64,000 nucleotides of DNA from a bacterium (GTDB lineage Bacteria; Actinomycetota; Acidimicrobiia; Acidimicrobiales; Bin134), in the NCBI GenBank assembly GCA_026705465.1, contig JAPPAP010000037.1:1-64000 (forward strand), in the 5' to 3' direction. Under the pieces are notes generated by a model. The model had not been told where the DNA came from. It ran no database searches and was given only the letters and a program-made list of their open reading frames with translations. The position numbers and the translations under genes were made by a program. Shown here one piece after another: positions 30,088 to 39,654 of the stretch; position 1 is the first letter of the stretch, and each line of letters begins with the position of its first letter.

Positions 30088-31425
30088 ATGACTGACTTTT
30101 TCGACACCGTTCCCGAACCGGTGGCCTATGCCGGACGCAGAGCGGGCTTGGGGCAGTTGGCCTATCGGGTCTACGACCCCGACCGGATGGTGATGGGGCG
30201 GCGCATGGAGGACCATCTCCGGATCGCGGTGTGCTACTGGCACAGCTTCAACTGGCCGGGCAGCGACATATTCGGCCACGGCACGTTCGACCGCCCTTGG
30301 CTGGAGCCCGGACAAGATCCCATGGCCGCCGCTCGGGCCAAGCAGGATGCCGCTTTTGAATTCTTCGAGAAGCTGGGTACGCCGTTCTTCTGCTTCCACG
30401 ATGTGGACATGGCCCCTGAGGGTGTTGACCTGGCTGAGAGCCGAGCCAACCTGGATTCCATGGTTGAGCGAGCAGCCGCCAAGATGGAGGCCACCGGTGT
30501 GCGGCTGCTGTGGGGGACGGCCAACTTGTTCTCCCATCCCCGGTACGCCGCCGGGGCAGCCACCAATCCCGATCCGGATGTATTCGCCCACGCCGCGGCC
30601 CAGGTGCGCCACATGCTCGAGGCCACCCACCGCCTCGACGGGGCCAACTACGTGTTGTGGGGCGGGCGCGAGGGCTATGAGACGCTCCTCAACACCCGGA
30701 TGCGCCAGGAGGCCGACCAACTCGCCCGCTTCTTGACCATGGTGGCCGAGCACAAGCACAAGATCGGCTTCGCTGGCACCCTGCTCATCGAACCCAAGCC
30801 CCAAGAGCCCACCAAGCACCAGTACGACTACGACTGCGCCTCGGTCCATGGCTTCTTGGACCGCTATGGCCTCGTTGATGAGTACAAGGTGAACATCGAG
30901 GTGAACCACGCCACCTTGTCGGGCCACTCCTTCCACCATGAGGTGGCCTATGCGGTGGACAACGGCATATTTGGCAGTGTTGACGCCAACCGGGGCGATC
31001 CTCAGAACGGTTGGGACACCGACCAGTTCCCCAACTCCGTGGACGAGCTCTCACTGGCCCTCTATGAGATTGTGCGGAGCGGGGGGTTCACCACCGGTGG
31101 GTTCAACTTCGACACCAAGCTCCGGCGCCAGAGCATGGCCCGTGACGACCTGTTTTGGGGCCACATCGGCGGTATCGACACGCTGGCCCGCTCGTTGCTG
31201 GTGGCCGAGGCCATGCTGGCCGACGGGGTCATCGAGCAGGCTCGAGCCGATCGCTACGCCTGCTGGGACTCAGGACTGGGCGCCGAGATCATGAAGGGCT
31301 ACGTGGACCTGACCGCGTTGGCCGACCAGGCGGTGGCCGACGGGCTCAACCCCCAGCCAGTGTCCGGACGCCAGGAGCACCTTGAGAACGAGGTCAATCG
31401 CATCATCTGGTCGACGCCGAACTGA
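30088..31425 (+). CDS. xylA: Xylose isomerase, class II type
   Basis: The 445-residue TIM-barrel enzyme converts D-xylose to D-xylulose. Visible sites are the catalytic histidine in F-H-D-V-D, the W-G-G-R-E-G-Y-E segment, the metal-binding glutamate in L-I-E-P-K-P-Q-E-P and the later N-I-E-V-N-H-A-T-L and D-A-N-R-G-D. The length and these variants fit the longer class II enzymes, whereas many actinobacterial XylA proteins are class I of about 390 residues. GGAGG at 30077 supports ATG 30088. xylB follows after 10 bases. Confidence 0.95.
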
Positions 31426-31435
31426 TGGCGAGCTG

Positions 31436-32914
31436 ATGGCGGATCGTGCGCTGGTGGCGGGGGTGGACTCGTCTACCCAGTCCACCAAGGTTGAGCTGCG
31501 GGAACTCGACTCTGGTCAGTTGGCAGCGCGGGCCAGCGCACCGCACACCCACACCTGCTGGGATCCGCCGGTGAGTGAGCAGGATCCCCAGACATGGTGG
31601 GAGGCGCTGGCGGAGTGCTTTGCTCGGTTCACCGATGCCGATCGGGCCGATGTGGTGGCGCTGAGCGTGGCTGGCCAGCAGCACGGGTTGGTGCTGGTGG
31701 GGGAGGACGGTGCAGTTCTGCGGCCGGCCAAGCTGTGGAACGACACCACGTCGGCGCTCCAGGCTGGCAGTCTGATGGCCCATCGCACACCACAGGAGTG
31801 GGCGCAGCGCTGCGGTTCGGTGCCGCTGGCGTCGTTCACCATCTCCAAACTGGCTTGGGTACTGGAACACGAGCCCGAGGTGGCCCGCCAGATCGATCGA
31901 ATCATGCTGCCCCACGACTGGCTCACCTGGCGGCTGACGGGCGCTCACGTCACCGACCGGGGCGATGCCTCAGGCACTGGCTGGTTCGATCCTGCCCGCA
32001 ACGAGCTGGCGGCTGACTTGCTGAGCGTGGTGGTGGGAGATGCCCATGATTGGCTGTCCCGGCTGCCCCAAGTGCTGGCACCTGATGAGGTTGCTGGGCC
32101 GATCATCGGTGACGCTGCTGCCGCGCTGGGCCTGTCAGAAGAAGTGCTTGTCGGCCCTGGCACTGGGGACAACATGGGCGCGGCCCTCGGTCTTGGGTTG
32201 CAACCCGGCGACACGGTGGTCTCGCTGGGCACATCAGGTACGGCATATTCCGTGTCCCTCACTCCGGCCAACGACCCGTCAGGGACCGTGGCGGGGTTTG
32301 CCGATGCCACCGGCGGCTATCTGCCGCTGGTGTGCACCCTCAACGCCACCCGAGTCACCGACACCGTGGCCCAGTGGTTGGGAGTAGAAGCGGCCGGTCT
32401 GGCTGAGCTGGCCCTAGCTGGGGAAGACGGGCCCAACGCGCCGGTGCTGGTGCCCTACTTTGACGGCGAGCGCACCCCCTACCTGCCCGATGCCCACGGG
32501 GTATTCGCCGGATTGCGAAGCGACACTACTCGGGAGGAGTTGGCTCTGGCCGCCCACGACGGGGTGCTCTGCGGGTTGTTCGATGGCCTCGATGCGCTGC
32601 GCACTGCTGGCGTTGCAACCAGCGGGCGGCTTCACCTCATCGGCGGTGGCGCCCGCTCGGCTGCCTACCAGGAGCGAGCGGCAATACTGCACGGTGAGCC
32701 GATTGTTGTGCCCGACGACGACGAGACGGTCGCCTTAGGGGCTGCGGTACAGGCCGCCGCGTCGGCAAGTGGCCGGCATCCGGCCGATGTCGCTGTCGAC
32801 TGGCCGCTCGGTCGGGGAACGCTTGTGGAACCCCCGCCTGGAATCGATGGCGGAGAGGTTCGAGCCCGCTATGCAGATCAGCAACGGAGGGCCTTTCCCT
32901 TCGGCAGCGAGTAG
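31436..32914 (+). CDS. xylB: Xylulokinase
   Basis: The 492-residue FGGY-family kinase phosphorylates D-xylulose with ATP. It starts with A-G-V-D-S-S-T-Q-S-T-K at the phosphate loop, has G-Q-Q-H-G near residue 80, catalytic aspartate region G-T-G-D-N-M-G-A-A near 245, S-L-G-T-S-G-T-A near 265 and a C-terminal I-G-G-G-A-R-S-A-A-Y near 405. ATG at 31436 is chosen because it begins directly at the domain; an earlier ATG at 31382 lies inside xylA. Probably co-transcribed with xylA. Confidence 0.93.
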   Translation: MADRALVAGVDSSTQSTKVELRELDSGQLAARASAPHTHTCWDPPVSEQDPQTWWEALAECFARFTDADRADVVALSVAGQQHGLVLVGEDGAVLRPAKLWNDTTSALQAGSLMAHRTPQEWAQRCGSVPLASFTISKLAWVLEHEPEVARQIDRIMLPHDWLTWRLTGAHVTDRGDASGTGWFDPARNELAADLLSVVVGDAHDWLSRLPQVLAPDEVAGPIIGDAAAALGLSEEVLVGPGTGDNMGAALGLGLQPGDTVVSLGTSGTAYSVSLTPANDPSGTVAGFADATGGYLPLVCTLNATRVTDTVAQWLGVEAAGLAELALAGEDGPNAPVLVPYFDGERTPYLPDAHGVFAGLRSDTTREELALAAHDGVLCGLFDGLDALRTAGVATSGRLHLIGGGARSAAYQERAAILHGEPIVVPDDDETVALGAAVQAAASASGRHPADVAVDWPLGRGTLVEPPPGIDGGEVRARYADQQRRAFPFGSE

Positions 32915-32942
32915 TGCCCCTGCTCTGTGGGAGAGTGTGAGC

Positions 32943-34100
32943 ATGTCGAGTGACCAGACGATGCGCGACCTCATGGCCAACCTGCCGGTTCCGGAGTTTG
33001 AGTCCACGCCGTGGGCATCTCCGCCTCCTTTGTCGGAGGCGACGGTTGCCATCGTGACTAGTGCGGGGCTGCACCGGGCGGACCAGGACCGCTTTGAAGG
33101 CCGGGGCGACACCAGCTATCGGATGCTTGATCGGAGCGACCGGGAACTGATCCTGGGCCACTGGAGCTCCAATTTCGACCGGGCTGCATATGTGTCCGAC
33201 CACAACGTGGTGTACCCCATCGATCGCTTGGAGGAATTGGCCGCTAACGGCACCATCGGGGCCGTAGCTCCTCGGCATTTGGCGTTCGCCGGAAACCAGC
33301 CCGACACTGTTTCGGAGGTGCGTCTCGACACTGGCCCCGCTGCCGCGGCAGAACTGCGGGCCGACGGGGTGGACGTGGCCATTTTGACGCCGGTTTGACC
33401 GCTGTGCACGCGCACCGTGTGTGTGCTGGCCCACGTGCTGGAAGACGCCGGCATCGCCACGGTGGTGCTGGCGTCGATGAAGCCGGTGGCTGAGCGGATG
33501 AACGTTCCCAGGGTGTTGTACTGCGAGTTCCCTCTGGGTCGCCCGTTGGGCATGCCCGACAACGCCCAATTCCAACATGGCGTGCTGGCCGCGGCATTCG
33601 ACCTGCTCAACGCCCCCTCTGGCCCAGTGTTGGTGGACTATCCGGAGGTGGTGGCGGCAATAGAGACGCCGCTGGCCTGTGCGCTGCCGCCCCGCTTTGA
33701 CCCTGATATCGCAGCGTCGGTGGACGAGGCCCAGGGACTGCGGGCCGCCTATGACCGGGCGGTGGCCCGTCGAGGAGCCACAGAAGTTGGCCGTTCGGTT
33801 GACGCTGATGGTGTTCCCGGCGCTCTAGCCGAACTGGAGCGACTGGTTGCCGGAGAACACTGGAAAGAGGTCTACGGCCCCCGGTTGGACACCATCGCCA
33901 TAGCCCACGACATCCGGGCCTACTACCAGGAGGCCGCCCTCGAATTAGCCGGTGGCCCGGTTCCAGGGGCACGGCAGGCTGAGGCCTGGTTCTACGAGCA
34001 GACCGAGGCGGGCAAGACGCTGGCCGCCGCCCGCGACGCCCTCACCGAGCAGGAGGCCCCCAGCGGCATCACGTTCTACATGCAGCCTGTGGGACGCTGA
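32943..34100 (+). CDS. GrdB/PrdB-like reductase family selenoprotein with UGA-encoded Sec152
   Basis: Two open stretches join if TGA at 33396-33398 is read as selenocysteine, giving 385 residues. The join reads V-A-I-L-T-P-V-U-P-L-C-T-R-T-V-C, aligning with A-V-I-L-T-S-T-U-G-T-C-T-R-C in clostridial glycine reductase GrdB. Upstream T-V-A-I-V-T-S-A-G and N-V-V-Y-P-I-D-R-L-E-E-L and downstream E-F-P-L-G-R-P-L-G are also family features. GrdB and PrdB cleave C-N bonds of glycine or D-proline by a selenol. No other reductase subunits lie nearby, so the substrate is unknown. About 120 C-terminal residues form an extra region. ATG 32943 follows GGGAGAG. Confidence 0.85.
33396..33398 (+). other. Recoded UGA: selenocysteine codon of the GrdB/PrdB-like gene
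   Basis: TGA lies in the U-x-x-C redox motif at the position occupied by Sec in GrdB. The protein family continues in the same frame on both sides, and the downstream part has no start codon giving a complete domain. Confidence 0.85.
33406..33426 (+). promoter_or_regulatory. Candidate SECIS hairpin of the GrdB/PrdB-like gene
   Basis: Eight pairs (GCACGCGC 33406-33413 with GUGUGUGC 33419-33426, two of them G-U) close the loop ACCGU. A shifted register pairs 33410-33415 with 33421-33426 and closes CGUGU, which has the G near the loop start preferred by SelB. The hairpin is 7 to 28 bases after the UGA, the usual zone. The exact active structure is not certain. Confidence 0.6.
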
Positions 34101-34104
34101 GTTA

Positions 34105-35265
34105 TCAGCGCACCGCGGGCAGCGGATCGCCGATTCGGGCGAAGCACTCGGCGGCGGTTGCTCCCATGAACGCGGTTCTCACCTCATCATCGAGTTCATT
34201 GAGCGCCGGCCGGTAGAGCTCGATCGGGTCGGCGTTACCCTCCTGGTGGGGATAGTCGGAGGAGAACACCACCATGTCGGGCAGCGCGGCCAGCACCTCG
34301 AGGGCATCGGTGTCGCCGAATCCGGGCAGGGGAGTGAGTCGCAGGTTGCGGTGGAGCATCTCCTCGCCGCTGGTGGGCCACGGCCAGTCGCCCAAGGACG
34401 GCGATGACAGGCACTGGCGGGACAGTGTTGCCACATACCAGGGGAGCCATCCAGCCCTCATCTCCTCGACCAGCACGGTGAGATCGGGGAACCGGTGGAA
34501 CACCCCGCCGAACAGCATGCTGGCAATGAGATTCTGGGCGGCGTGCAGCCGCTGGGTGTTGGCCAGCCGGATCAGCCCGCCTATGCCAGCCCCATCGGGC
34601 AAGTCCCAGCCGATATCGGCCCACTTCGAGAAGTCCGACTCGGTGTTTCCCACATGGATCACCGCCACCATGCCCAGGGAGGTGGCCGCAGCCCACACCT
34701 GATCCCAGTCGGGGTGACCGGGCGGGCCTCCAGCGGGCGCTCCCCGGCAGGTGTAGAGGAAGAACGCCCGGGAGCCCCGCTCCCGACACCGCTCCAGCTC
34801 AGCCACCGCGTGGTCCAGATCAGAGAAGTCGATGGTGGCCACTGTGTGGAGCCGATTGTGCTGGTCTGAAAGCTGGTCGGTGAGGAAGTCGTTGCAGCGT
34901 TGGGCGGCGACCACGCGATCCTCAGGCCGCAAATAGTCGAGCTTCTGCCAATAGCCGCCGGGGTTCACCAGGCAGTGGTCGATGCCCACCGAGTCCATCC
35001 ACGCCACCCGCTCGGCCGCAGTGGAATCGTGGCGGGGGTGCAGAATCACCGGCCCGCCGGATTCTTCGGCCCGCTCAAAAAGCTTGGGGAGCAGTTCTGC
35101 CGGGCTTGGCAAACGATCCGCGGGAAGCACTTGAAGCAGGTCCCCGGCGATGGCGTTGGCCAGATGGGTCCGATTGTCGGGAATCTGATCGGCCCACGGC
35201 TTCATGGGATCAACCCCGGCCGAGTCCCCCGTGATCTCCCAATGGGTATCCACGTCCACGATCAT
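34105..35265 (-). CDS. Amidohydrolase-2 (ACMSD-like) metal-dependent hydrolase
   Basis: The 386-residue TIM-barrel protein begins I-V-D-V-D-T-H-W, has a metal-ligand histidine region V-A-V-I-H-V-G-N near residue 195 and the family motif F-S-S-D-Y-P-H-Q-E-G near 335. These are typical of the ACMSD/amidohydrolase-2 group, which decarboxylates or hydrolyses aromatic or cyclic acids. It converges on the GrdB-like gene with four bases between stops. It is one of three such paralogues in the window; the substrate is unknown. Confidence 0.85.
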   Translation of the reverse strand: MIVDVDTHWEITGDSAGVDPMKPWADQIPDNRTHLANAIAGDLLQVLPADRLPSPAELLPKLFERAEESGGPVILHPRHDSTAAERVAWMDSVGIDHCLVNPGGYWQKLDYLRPEDRVVAAQRCNDFLTDQLSDQHNRLHTVATIDFSDLDHAVAELERCRERGSRAFFLYTCRGAPAGGPPGHPDWDQVWAAATSLGMVAVIHVGNTESDFSKWADIGWDLPDGAGIGGLIRLANTQRLHAAQNLIASMLFGGVFHRFPDLTVLVEEMRAGWLPWYVATLSRQCLSSPSLGDWPWPTSGEEMLHRNLRLTPLPGFGDTDALEVLAALPDMVVFSSDYPHQEGNADPIELYRPALNELDDEVRTAFMGATAAECFARIGDPLPAVR

Positions 35266-35300: not shown

Positions 35301-37004
35301 TCAGTCGAGTCGGGCGATATACCAACGTGGTGGTGAGGCGGAGATTTCGGGGGCGGTGAGGGGGGCCGAATTTGAACCGGACTGTCCGTCGCCAACTCCG
35401 ACATTGAAATCCTCGTCGAATACGGCTTCGGGGAACTTGTAGGTCTGAACCTGGGCGAGCACGAAGTCCCGGCCAACGGCCACCTGGACCTCGGTGAAGG
35501 AGTTGTCGTTTTCGGTTCGCTCGGGAAGGCCGAAGGCCTCTTGGAGGGTTTGCCACTCCCAGTCGGTCCCGTCCACCGACCAGCCCACCAAGAAATCGTT
35601 GGGGTCGTAAGCACTGCGGGCAGTCGCTTCCTGTTCCAAGAATGCGGCCGATATCTCCTCACCGGAGAAGGCCACAAGTTCGTCTCCGGTCACGGGGTGG
35701 TCAAACACCACCATGAAGCCGCCCACCTCCGTGAAGCCGTTGTTGCCCTCGACTTCTCGCACTCCTTCTGGCGGCATCTCACTTTGGACGGCCACCGCGT
35801 CGAAGACATACACGGCTGTGTCTTCATCCAAATCCCACAGCGTGATGCCGCCTTCAGGTTGGTTGTACCGGAGTTCGTAGCCGTCTTTCTCGATGCTGAT
35901 GTCGGGCATAGAGAATTCGTCATCAGAGTTGTCGTAGGGCGCTTCGGGGCCTCCGACCATGGCAATGCCCGCGGGTCCGACAGCGAGATCAGGAACCCAG
36001 CCGATGCCTTCGGGGAGGGTTAGCACCTGTCCGGAACCGTAGACACCCTCGAAGCGCTCGATCCGGTATTCCGTGTAGCCCTCATCTGCGGTCCAGATCA
36101 TTTCGTGGGCGCTGTCAGTGACCTCTACATCCACGGGGGTACTGGTCCACTCACGACCATCTGAGGAATACAGCAAGTATTCCTGGCCGGAGTCGGACAC
36201 AATCAGACGAAAGCCGTCAGACGCTCCGTGGCCGCTGGCAAACCAACCCGGGAAATCTGCCACCGGCTCAGCTGGCCCACCATCGCTCAAGAGGACTTGG
36301 ACTCTGGCCACGCTGGGCTCAAAGTCCACGTCGCCCTCACCGCCCCCCTCCATGAGAGGCACCCCTGGTTCATGAATGGCCGCGACCACCATGAGTTGTC
36401 CGGCGACAATCGCGTCTGCGATCCAGGCCGTACCTTCGAATGAGCTCAGGTCGACCGGCAGTTCAGTCCAGGTCTCACCTTGGTCGTCAGAAAACCGAAT
36501 CTGGGTATAGGGGGCTTCGAGGGTTGAGTCCCAACCTTGGATCAACCAGCGGTCGCCGGAGATGTCGGCGCTCCACGGCAGGAAACCGGCGGGAACAGGG
36601 ATCGGAGTCCACTCCCTGCCGTTCTCAGAGACCATGATCGAATCCATGCCGCGGTCGATGAAGCTCATAGCCAGAACACGCCCGTCGCCTACCGACTGGA
36701 GTTGGACAGTTGAGGTCTCGTCGGCGCCTAGTACGCGGGAGAGATCGACTTCGGTCCAAGCCAGACCAGTGTCATCAGGGGAGTCGGTTGGAGTAGCTGC
36801 GGGCTCTGGTGTCGAAGTGACTCCTTCTGGCGTGGCAATCTCCGGAATCGGTGTCTGCACCGGATCGGGACGCCCGCTGCCCGCAATCACTTCGGTGCTA
36901 TCTGATGACGAGCAGGCCGCGAACCCGCCGATGAAGAGAGTCACGAGGGCCGAAATGCCAGCTACTGTCCGAAAGCTCGTCTTGGTCAAGATCACGACCA
37001 CCAA
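35301..37004 (-). CDS. Secreted BNR/sialidase-like beta-propeller lipoprotein
   Basis: The 567-residue protein has an N-terminal hydrophobic signal and lipobox F-A-A-C near residue 30, a proline/threonine-rich linker, and repeated N-G-R-E-W, D-Q-G-E-T-W and D-G-T-D-W-E-W segments resembling Asp-box (BNR) turns of beta-propellers. It is a paralogue of the extracytoplasmic part of the next gene (37142): both contain W-T-E, V-G-D-G-R-V-L-A and G-D-R-W-L in the same order. The start is unclear, with TTG 37004 and GTG 37001 or 36995 available and no strong ribosome-binding site. Function unknown; substrate binding or surface sensing is possible. Confidence 0.7.
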   Translation of the reverse strand: MVVVILTKTSFRTVAGISALVTLFIGGFAACSSSDSTEVIAGSGRPDPVQTPIPEIATPEGVTSTPEPAATPTDSPDDTGLAWTEVDLSRVLGADETSTVQLQSVGDGRVLAMSFIDRGMDSIMVSENGREWTPIPVPAGFLPWSADISGDRWLIQGWDSTLEAPYTQIRFSDDQGETWTELPVDLSSFEGTAWIADAIVAGQLMVVAAIHEPGVPLMEGGGEGDVDFEPSVARVQVLLSDGGPAEPVADFPGWFASGHGASDGFRLIVSDSGQEYLLYSSDGREWTSTPVDVEVTDSAHEMIWTADEGYTEYRIERFEGVYGSGQVLTLPEGIGWVPDLAVGPAGIAMVGGPEAPYDNSDDEFSMPDISIEKDGYELRYNQPEGGITLWDLDEDTAVYVFDAVAVQSEMPPEGVREVEGNNGFTEVGGFMVVFDHPVTGDELVAFSGEEISAAFLEQEATARSAYDPNDFLVGWSVDGTDWEWQTLQEAFGLPERTENDNSFTEVQVAVGRDFVLAQVQTYKFPEAVFDEDFNVGVGDGQSGSNSAPLTAPEISASPPRWYIARLD

Positions 37005-37039
37005 ACACTAGGTGCGGCATCCATGTAGTGGGGGACGCA

Positions 37040-37096
37040 GACGGCAGTGCGGGCGGTTGGTGCGGAGGGGGAACGCTCCAACCGCCCGCAGCCGTC
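37040..37096. terminator. Long GC-rich hairpin between the two BNR-protein genes
   Basis: Arms GACGGC (37040-37045) plus a 13-base segment (37048-37060) pair perfectly with 37078-37096, leaving only a two-base bulge and a 17-base loop. It lies after the stop of the membrane sensor-like gene and before the lipoprotein gene. No U-run follows, so it could be an I-shaped terminator, attenuator or processing site. Confidence 0.55.
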
Positions 37097-37141
37097 CCGC
37101 CGTCTAAGCCAGAGCCGTTGGTTGTGGCCCTAACGCTCTTC

Positions 37142-39121
37142 TCATTCTACGGTGGCGATGAACCATCGCGGGGGTAGATATGTGACGGAGAAGGCGCCAT
37201 CGCCGCTGTCGCTGGGCGTCTCAGGGGGATCAAGAACGCCAGTCTCGACTCGGGCGATTATGAAGTGGCTGCCGACGGCCAACTCGACGTTGGTGAACTC
37301 TTTCTCAATATCGGCTAGTTCGGTCAATCCGAAGGCATCGGAAAGGGTTTGCCACACCCAGTCACTGCCGTTGGCCGACCAACCCATCCATGGTTCGACC
37401 TGCTGGGGCCTGATGTCTGGTGCGGCCAGAAGGCTCTCATCATCGATCCGGGGTTCCAGTTCTTCCATGGTGAACGACACCATGTGATCACCGGTTTCGG
37501 GATCCTCAAAGACCAACTGCTCGGTAGCGCCATCGCTGCCTTCCACGACCCGGATGCCTTCAGGGAGCATGTTGGCCTGTTCGTTCTCGGCGTCGACTAC
37601 ATAGACGGCCGCGTCCTTCGTCAGGTCCCATAGGGTGAAGCCGCCAGCGGGCTCGTTGTAGCGCAACTCGTAACCGTCTTTGGTCACCTGCAAGTTCAGC
37701 TCAAAGTCGGCACCGGGGAAGCTCCCGGGCACGGCCACCATGGCGATGCCCGCGGGTCCCACCGAGAGGCGATTCACATGGGCGATTCCGTTGGGAAGTT
37801 CGGCGGCCAGAGGGGCGGTGAGCACGCCAACGGAGCGTTCGACTCGGTAGTCGCCTGCTGTTCCACCCGACGTCCAGATCGTTTCCATGGTTGACCCGTA
37901 GTAGTTGGAGAGGCGATCGACGAGAACGCCGTCGTCGGTGGACAAAGGAGATGGGCTCCATTGACGGCCATTGGGGGAGGTCAGCTTGAGCGACCCTTCG
38001 GTGGCCAGCATCAAGAGATGGAAGCCGTCGGTTGCGCCGTAACCGGCAACATCCCAGCCCTGATACTGGGCCACGAGTTCCGCAGCTCCACCGTCGCTGT
38101 GGAAGATGCGGACAAAGTTCCGGTCGCCTCCGTAGAGGAAATGCTCCTCCTCGGGGGTCAGCTCAAAAGACTCGGGCGGTGACGATTCGTCTCGGGTGAA
38201 GCTCACGGTGTTGCCTTCCACGCCCATCCAGCCCCGTATCGACTCCTTGTCGGGTACTAGGCCACGGCCCACGATTACCGCGGCGATGTCGACATGGACT
38301 TGGGTCTCGACCGCCAGCACCATATTTTGCCCGGACACAGCCGCCGCCTCGATGCGGGAAGTCTCGTTGGGAGCAACGAAGTCGAGAGCTAGATCAGTCC
38401 ACGTGGTTCCTTGGTCGTCAGAGAAAAACGCCTGAGCCCCAAGGCTGGTGTCATTGAATCGCGAACCGGTCACGAGCCAGCGATCCCCAGCGATGTCGAA
38501 CCTCTCAGGGGCGAAAGATGACGGCATCGGAATCACAGTCCAGTCGGCGCCGTTCTCGGTGATCATCACCTGGTTGCCTTCGGGGCCGTAGACCTGTGCC
38601 AGCACGCGTCCGTCGCCGACCGAGACGATGCTGTGGACATCGACTGCGTCAGCCCCAAAGACGCTGTTCGGCTCGAATTCGGTCCATGCAGGTGCGGGAA
38701 TGGTGGAAAGGCTCTCTGGGGTTGGAGGCTCGGAACTCGTTTCGGAGCCTGTCTGCGGGGTGTCTTCTGGTTCGCTCGGAGATTCTGCGGATGGTGCCAG
38801 GGTTGGTTCTGCGCTCGGCTCGGGTGCAGGGGGTGCGGTGGGGTCAACGACCACGATCAATTCAGTGGGCTGATCGTCTGCGAAGGCGTTCCAGGCCGCG
38901 ATTCCGCCTGCTACCAGGGCAACCGATGCGGCGATGCCCATTACCGCGCGCCGGGTGTTGCGGGCCTTGGCCCGGGCGGCGGCCCGCTCGGCGATCAAGG
39001 ACACCGGCGGTCGGGCCGCCGGGGTATCGACTCGTTCTCGGATGGCGGAACCGAGGGCCTCGCCTAGGGCTTGATCGTCGGTTCCGTCCAGGTTCTCAGG
39101 GGTGCGGCGCTCGTCGCTCAC
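37142..39121 (-). CDS. Membrane protein paired with an ECF sigma factor (probable anti-sigma/sensor) with BNR-like extracytoplasmic domain
   Basis: The 659-residue protein starts with about 58 cytosolic residues, then a transmembrane segment (A-V-M-G-I-A-A-S-V-A-L-V-A-G-G), a proline/serine/glutamate-rich stalk and a large domain with BNR-like repeats (N-G-A-D-W, D-Q-G-T-T-W, N-G-R-Q-W, N-G-S-D-W-V-W). Its ATG overlaps the TGA of the sigma-factor gene (ATGA). In actinobacteria such genes often encode the anti-sigma partner. The N-terminus has no H-x3-C-x2-C zinc anti-sigma motif, so it would be a cysteine-free type. The outer domain could sense an extracellular ligand. Confidence 0.7.
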   Translation of the reverse strand: MSDERRTPENLDGTDDQALGEALGSAIRERVDTPAARPPVSLIAERAAARAKARNTRRAVMGIAASVALVAGGIAAWNAFADDQPTELIVVVDPTAPPAPEPSAEPTLAPSAESPSEPEDTPQTGSETSSEPPTPESLSTIPAPAWTEFEPNSVFGADAVDVHSIVSVGDGRVLAQVYGPEGNQVMITENGADWTVIPMPSSFAPERFDIAGDRWLVTGSRFNDTSLGAQAFFSDDQGTTWTDLALDFVAPNETSRIEAAAVSGQNMVLAVETQVHVDIAAVIVGRGLVPDKESIRGWMGVEGNTVSFTRDESSPPESFELTPEEEHFLYGGDRNFVRIFHSDGGAAELVAQYQGWDVAGYGATDGFHLLMLATEGSLKLTSPNGRQWSPSPLSTDDGVLVDRLSNYYGSTMETIWTSGGTAGDYRVERSVGVLTAPLAAELPNGIAHVNRLSVGPAGIAMVAVPGSFPGADFELNLQVTKDGYELRYNEPAGGFTLWDLTKDAAVYVVDAENEQANMLPEGIRVVEGSDGATEQLVFEDPETGDHMVSFTMEELEPRIDDESLLAAPDIRPQQVEPWMGWSANGSDWVWQTLSDAFGLTELADIEKEFTNVELAVGSHFIIARVETGVLDPPETPSDSGDGAFSVTYLPPRWFIATVE

Positions 39122-39654
39122 TGCTCGACCACCTTTCGCAATTCAGCCAGTCCTCGGGAGGTGGCGCTCTTTACCGTGCCCGGCCGCATCCCCATGGCCT
39201 GGGCGATCTCCTTCTCGGTCATGTCGGCGTAGAACTTCAAGACAAGGACGGTCTTCTGACGGGATGAGAGCTGGTCTAGGGCATCAAGCAGGTAGTCCCG
39301 ATCCTCGGGCTGAGAGGGGATGAACGGCCGAATGCCAATCCGCCGCCTCACTTCGCGTTTTCTCAGCTCGCTGCGGGCACCGTTTACCACTGCGGTGCGC
39401 AGGTAGCCGCCGGGATGGTCGAGCCGGCTCCAGCGTTCGTACACCCGGGCAAAGGCATCCTGGACGATCTCTTCCGCGATCTCCTGTGTGTCCACCAACC
39501 CTCGAGCCAGGCGGACCATCGGTGCATATTCGTCCCGGTATAGGTCGTCAAAACTGGCCAGCCGAGGAACTTCGCCTGTCGTCGCGGGATCACGCCAAAT
39601 CGGCTGGTTGCCCTCTGAAACTCCCGAAGCCATCCAAGGGATAGTCTTCATCAC
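39118..39654 (-). CDS. ECF-type RNA polymerase sigma factor (SigE family)
   Basis: The 178-residue protein has region 2 (L-Y-R-D-E-Y-A-P-M-V-R-L-A-R, then E-I-V-Q-D-A-F-A-R-V-Y-E-R-W near residue 65) and region 4 with the HTH-containing segment L-S-S-R-Q-K-T-V-L-V-L-K-F-Y-A-D-M-T-E-K-E-I-A near 135. It should direct transcription in response to an envelope signal relayed by the overlapping membrane-protein gene. Starts at 39654 or 39651 are nearly leaderless relative to the promoter candidate upstream; ATG 39630 is a later alternative. Confidence 0.88.
   Translation of the reverse strand: MMKTIPWMASGVSEGNQPIWRDPATTGEVPRLASFDDLYRDEYAPMVRLARGLVDTQEIAEEIVQDAFARVYERWSRLDHPGGYLRTAVVNGARSELRKREVRRRIGIRPFIPSQPEDRDYLLDALDQLSSRQKTVLVLKFYADMTEKEIAQAMGMRPGTVKSATSRGLAELRKVVEQ

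Follow-up and report, generated by a model that had tools for sequence, protein, structure and literature searches.

A standalone PrdB-like selenoprotein with a helical C-terminal extension in Acidimicrobiia

The closest described relatives of the protein reported here are the selenoprotein subunits of D-proline reductase and of the glycine, sarcosine and betaine reductases. PrdB, the D-proline reductase selenoprotein subunit (TIGR04483), is a protein of 237-241 aa with Sec in a UGTCHR motif, at the place that matches the Sec of the present protein (151/152), and its gene sits in the prdA cluster. GrdB, GrdF and GrdH are the selenoprotein B of the glycine, sarcosine and betaine reductases (PF07355, TIGR01917, TIGR01918, NF040794, NF040795). 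The general chemistry of PrdB and GrdB is an attack by the selenolate followed by resolution by a cysteine. A GrdB homologue linked to a substrate unable to form a Schiff base is also known, namely the fluoroacetate reductase FarB of the anaerobe Cloacibacillus; it comes with FarE as its GrdE-type partner, and its predicted role is to supply the glycine reductase system (PMC10838667).

Marine PrdB-type selenoproteins have been known since 2005. In the Sargasso Sea survey 42 PrdB-type UxxC genes are counted, as proline reductase (PMC1088965), and in the GOS survey 235 sequences are counted under the same name and rank among the most abundant ocean selenoproteins (PMC2398784); a 2026 review enters the family as D-proline reductase as well (PMC13188914). 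These proteins resemble the one described below in their marine origin, in containing Sec, in the UxxC motif and in their assignment to PrdB/pfam07355, and the available portions of the two surveys set no partnerless or extended branch apart.

The gene under study lies in a stretch of 64,000 nucleotides, referred to as the window, from an Acidimicrobiia assembly (GCA_026705465.1, contig JAPPAP010000037.1). Its reading frame runs from an ATG at 32943 to a stop TGA at 34098-34100 and contains one further stop, the TGA at 33396-33398 (codon 152 of 385), around which the read-through protein reads ...AILTPV-U-PLCTRTVCV... The mechanical ORF list splits the gene into 32769-33398 and 33417-34100, which are its two halves; any gene caller reading TGA as a stop would cut it in the same way. 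The whole window was screened for TGA codons that separate two same-phase frames, each of coding-like GC, and that have a Cys 2-3 residues away; this codon was the sole one retained. The original prediction of a TGA interrupting a frame that continues, here into a 385-aa read-through product, was therefore correct. The elements of the gene, which could be aligned end to end with 44 full-length homologues, are as follows.

32943..34100, + strand: selenoprotein gene, 385 codons for 385 aa, Sec at position 152, as translated with TGA read as U
33021..33605, + strand: PrdB-like catalytic domain, aa 27-221 (TIGR04483, PF07355, hhalign), Rossmann-like alpha/beta in the model
33396..33398, + strand: Sec152 codon, first residue of the U-P-L-C site
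33405..33407, + strand: Cys155, second half of the UxxC pair
33406..33430, + strand: SECIS-like hairpin, inner stem 33410-33415/33421-33426, loop 33416-33420, outer pairs 33406-33407/33429-33430
33648..34097, + strand: C-terminal helical extension, aa 236-385, eight helices by AlphaFold, with no Pfam family found

The protein had been described as GrdB/PrdB-like, with its site aligned on that of clostridial glycine reductase. A profile search with the joined 385-residue sequence supports membership of the superfamily and places PrdB, rather than GrdB, closest. The best NCBIfam model is PrdB TIGR04483 (E 5.7e-41), at 140.5 bits against an equivalog cut-off of 300, which is not reached, while the GrdB-type NCBIfam models score 46-68 bits and all fall short of their cut-offs (59.2 against 65.45 and 46.1 against 602 in the TIGR01918/TIGR01917 test). 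PF07355 (GRDB) is above its gathering cut-off, at 42.8 bits against 22, over profile positions 202-345 of 347 only; this match covers just the part before Sec, and the alignments to the NCBIfam models run on through the UxxC site. The N-terminal 200 positions of GrdB (about 431 positions at full length) are missing from the protein. Moreover, hhalign matches it to Enterococcus PrdB at 99.7%; the 208 columns are 36% identical and place one Sec site opposite the other (identity to PrdB is 35-36% over about 210 aa), and a Sec/Cys-x-x-Cys site is present at the PrdB position. Judged by these profile scores and alignments, the nearest characterised family is PrdB and not GrdB. The protein nevertheless differs from PrdB in its length of 385 aa, its UPLCTR motif, its separate clade and a genome without PrdA; like GrdB, GrdF and GrdH it carries the PF07355 region before Sec, and unlike them it occurs in a genome without GrdA or GrdE-type proteins.

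The state of codon 152 in relatives, proposed earlier as a check, proved to be conserved. In a survey of the class a homologue is present in 133 of 395 genomes, nearly all with exactly one in-frame TGA, and the extracted extended sequences of the Sec type have TGA in 53/53 cases and TAA or TAG in 0/53. One orthologue, 50% identical (L130/L150, ...TPACPMCTRTVCT), has Cys at the Sec site in an open frame. Two extended orthologues have Ala there (L089:8534-9697 and L090:8814-9965; genomes G158 and G194 for the pair), and no selA or tRNA-Sec above threshold was detected in these two genomes, 80% and 64% complete; of the genomes tested for selA, the remaining 13 have it. Cys155 is an invariant alignment column in the clade, so that the U-x-x-C site first proposed from a single sequence is borne out by its relatives. 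Among close relatives dN/dS is 0.03-0.08 before the TGA and 0.07-0.14 after it, values by which the codons 3' of the TGA are under purifying selection.

The Ala orthologues persist where the Sec machinery seems lost, as would be expected if the protein had a non-redox role, in binding or regulation, and Sec were a dispensable relic. This we regard as highly improbable, since only three of the extended homologues read lack Sec, one of the three has Cys, and Cys155 is retained even in the Ala copies. As an observation in its own right, L089 and L090 provide a natural case of a selenoprotein in which Sec has been replaced by Ala rather than Cys. Separately, some short or divergent homologues (G469:C4:547435-548022, G499:C19:14663-15280, G737:C264:28279-28815 and G058:C212:1323-2201) contain two in-frame TGA codons, perhaps reflecting two selenocysteines or decay.

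A hairpin behind the TGA had also been predicted, and it is both conserved and covarying. Its loop lies 17 nt behind the TGA. Numbered from the T of this codon, the inner stem is 15-20/26-31; across 40 diverse sequences 99.6% of the cells of this stem and of the two outer pairs are paired, with 12 double-sided changes, and 0/500 shuffles came as high. The variable pair in the middle of the stem, between base three of the invariant Arg157 codon and base one of codon 161, changes from C-G to U-A: where Arg157 is CGC, codon 161 is GTG or GCG, and where it is CGT, codon 161 is ACG (40/40 agreement), and about seven switches of this pair are counted on the tree (Fitch). At other conserved Arg positions, taken as a control, four to six codons occur and the agreement is 7-17/40. 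The stem is broken in both Ala homologues. The hairpin rests on this covariation because its single-sequence folding energy is unremarkable in GC-rich DNA, being not above that of shuffles (z = 0.77). On this comparative evidence UGA152 is decoded as selenocysteine, as predicted, through the hairpin right behind it.

These data also bear on whether the TGA is a true stop, giving a 151-residue protein and a separate downstream gene, or whether the gene is a decaying pseudogene. The downstream ORF does offer a GTG at 33417 as a start; this codon reads GTC in four relatives. Furthermore, the TGA is conserved and never replaced by TAA or TAG, the downstream dN/dS indicates constraint, the Cys orthologue has an open frame and the hairpin covaries. 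Both readings were rejected on these grounds, and we give them almost no weight.

The genome of the window encodes the machinery for selenocysteine. SelA and SelB adjoin each other on contig C3, and SelD lies on contig C19 (L104, G000:C19:53941-54885) with an in-frame TGA of its own, so that SelD is probably a selenoprotein too. An intact tRNA-Sec was not detected in this assembly because a contig break cuts the gene, whose 3' half lies at C3:1, right at the contig end; complete copies with anticodon UCA are present in the congeners G382 and G320. Taken together, the TGA that is invariant and the only stop, the Cys orthologue, the occurrence of Ala only where selA and tRNA-Sec were not detected, the covarying SECIS, the purifying selection downstream and the Sec machinery make it virtually certain that this is a genuine selenoprotein gene; that its product is a PrdB homologue is equally certain from the profile matches given above.

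The extra C-terminal part noted at the outset is indeed present, and is longer than the roughly 120 residues first given: relative to PrdB (241 aa) the extension amounts to about 145-150 residues. AlphaFold predicts an alpha/beta Rossmann-like domain followed by a helical domain, with a mean pLDDT of 93.7 for the whole protein and 89.9 for the extension alone, and the modelled Sec sits between strand E145-149 and helix H153-168. Foldseek comparison of the whole model with the PDB gave no match at E <= 0.001, the best (Z 7.5) being common Rossmann-like arrangements, and the C-terminal domain alone gave none at E <= 0.001 and none at Z >= 5; no solved relative was found by sequence, and the viral structure library returned no match. 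The Foldseek matches are weak and Rossmann-like and give no basis for inferring substrate binding from the structure. Two candidate identities for the extension were discarded: a likeness to 14-3-3 proteins (best Z 4.3) is not meaningful, and hhalign with Enterococcus PrdA, which would have pointed to a fused piece of that subunit, gave nothing. Alignment of the C-terminal domain by hhalign with the small neighbour protein of the short forms also gave nothing.

A maximum-likelihood tree built from 86 rows of the PrdB domain places all extended forms in one group of 48 rows (support 100/96) and canonical PrdB in a separate group (100/100). By this grouping Sec is the general state of the extended clade, within which Cys and Ala are nested. 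Short standalone relatives of Actinomycetota and Alphaproteobacteria fall elsewhere in the tree. They comprise proteins of aerobic bacteria such as Haematobacter and Roseomonas, which NCBI names 'glycine/sarcosine/betaine reductase selenoprotein B family protein', and short PrdB-like proteins of Actinomycetota; they share the domain, the standalone state and a U/C-P-x-C site with the extended forms, from which they differ in their size (216-313 aa), in lacking the C-terminal helical domain, in a mostly UPxCH motif and in their clades. Two observations concern these short forms themselves. In one clade (L161, L163, L164, L165 and L167, with U or C, at around 4.9-7.9 kb) the gene lies between that of a ychF-like GTPase, which it directly follows, and one for a conserved membrane protein; no other neighbourhood seen in the family is as well conserved. 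In three genomes (L151-L153) the gene of a 102-aa protein overlaps the end of the short PrdB-like gene, and its product may be a partner in that branch.

The absence of GrdA and PrdA partners, stated in the original prediction for the neighbourhood, extends to whole genomes. Neither PF09338 (GrdE/PrdA-type) nor PF04723 (GrdA) has a match in the window's genome or in six relatives, of which four are single-contig; both profiles were recovered on a Peptoclostridium plasmid used as positive control, where PF09338 detected a distant PrdA beside PrdB at 78 bits. TIGR04480 (PrdA), which had no positive control of its own, was also negative in the 7 genomes. One could still suppose that the enzyme is of the D-proline/glycine-reductase type and works with a pyruvoyl subunit that is distant, unrecognised and encoded at another locus, since almost the full length of the PrdB domain can be aligned and gene order is silent on partners encoded elsewhere. 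We consider this improbable in view of the three negative profiles in seven genomes, of the sensitivity of PF09338 to the distant control PrdA, and of the annotated canonical prdB genes viewed, which lie inside prdA clusters.

The gene was said to stand alone beside xylose genes, and comparison of neighbourhoods bears out the first part in relatives and confines the second to the genus. The neighbours in the window are the following.

30088..31425, + strand: xylose isomerase-like protein (PF01261), genus-level neighbour
31436..32914, + strand: FGGY-type carbohydrate kinase, xylulokinase-like (PF00370/PF02782), 28 bp upstream on the same strand, genus-level neighbour
34105..35265, - strand: amidohydrolase (PF04909), convergent, 4 bp downstream, outside the unit

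The gene order of the genus is formyltetrahydrofolate ligase, xylose isomerase, xylulokinase, selenoprotein gene and amidohydrolase, and some members keep the selenoprotein gene without xylulokinase or without both xylose genes. Outside the genus the immediate neighbours of 55 extended homologues had nothing in common, small sets of syntenic relatives apart, and none of them is a conserved operon partner that would point to a substrate. An enoyl-CoA hydratase is beside or near several (L068, L069, L073, L075, L077, L101), some of these loci being syntenic. Since the xylose genes vary within the genus and neighbours are unconserved beyond it, the xylose setting is a lineage feature and not a reliable functional link. 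Elsewhere in the window, at 35301-39654, two adjacent related proteins of 567 and 659 aa with secretion-type N termini lie beside an ECF-like sigma factor gene, in an arrangement conserved in the genus.

The missing partners and the extra domain suggest a reaction different from the known PrdB and GrdB ones. We propose, as a reading that is rather probable as a whole, that this genuine Sec protein and PrdB homologue acts as a single-chain Sec/Cys reductase, with no pyruvoyl partner; the mechanistic part taken alone is put forward tentatively, at a little under even chances. In such a mechanism the Rossmann-like domain would bind a small activated substrate, whose electrophilic carbon (or heteroatom) would be attacked by the selenolate of Sec152; Cys155 would resolve the intermediate as a selenenylsulphide with release of the reduced product, and a cellular dithiol, thioredoxin- or mycoredoxin-like, would restore the Sec/Cys pair. 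As a pyruvoyl partner is missing, the expected substrate is one that needs no Schiff base, unlike glycine or D-proline; the GrdB-type enzyme linked to fluoroacetate offers a precedent (PMC10838667). The C-terminal domain may close the active site or replace the PrdA contacts of D-proline reductase. The two orthologues with Ala imply that a strictly Sec-dependent reaction is not the whole story there, unless these copies changed function.

The UxxC motif is equally compatible with a general role in reducing disulphides or peroxides. Sec152 and Cys155 would then form a thioredoxin-like pair in a thiol:disulphide oxidoreductase or peroxide reductase, serving oxidative defence in aerobic marine bacteria with no C-X cleavage. 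This is the main rival to the single-chain substrate reductase, and we judge it unlikely yet worth serious attention: the gene is standalone with neighbours that are not substrate-specific, the record of one close relative bears the name 'aerobius', and UxxC redox proteins abound in marine selenoproteomes, PrdB being placed among thiol-dependent redox proteins in the Sargasso Sea survey (PMC1088965). However, the homology is to the catalytic subunit of a substrate reductase and not to thioredoxin, and the many invariant residues beyond the site, together with the fused domain, suggest a specific substrate.

A separate selenoenzyme family may exist across the class Acidimicrobiia, in which a PrdB/GrdB catalytic domain has shed its pyruvoyl partner, has gained a new helical domain by fusion and reduces another substrate in hosts without a glycine or proline reductase system; we hold this as an open possibility, slightly short of an even one. 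The Acidimicrobiia lineages concerned include marine and sponge-associated ones. PrdB-type selenoproteins as such are already known, and the partnerless, extended branch is apparently undescribed: our literature search found no description of it, and no paper on Acidimicrobiia selenoproteins or on the database family name. Because the PrdA-type partner is missing from the genome, the proline reductase annotation should not be carried over to the extended branch, and dropping it would leave a common use of selenium without an assigned reaction. The single-contig genomes, together with the Cys and Ala orthologues, make the role of Sec in this branch directly testable.
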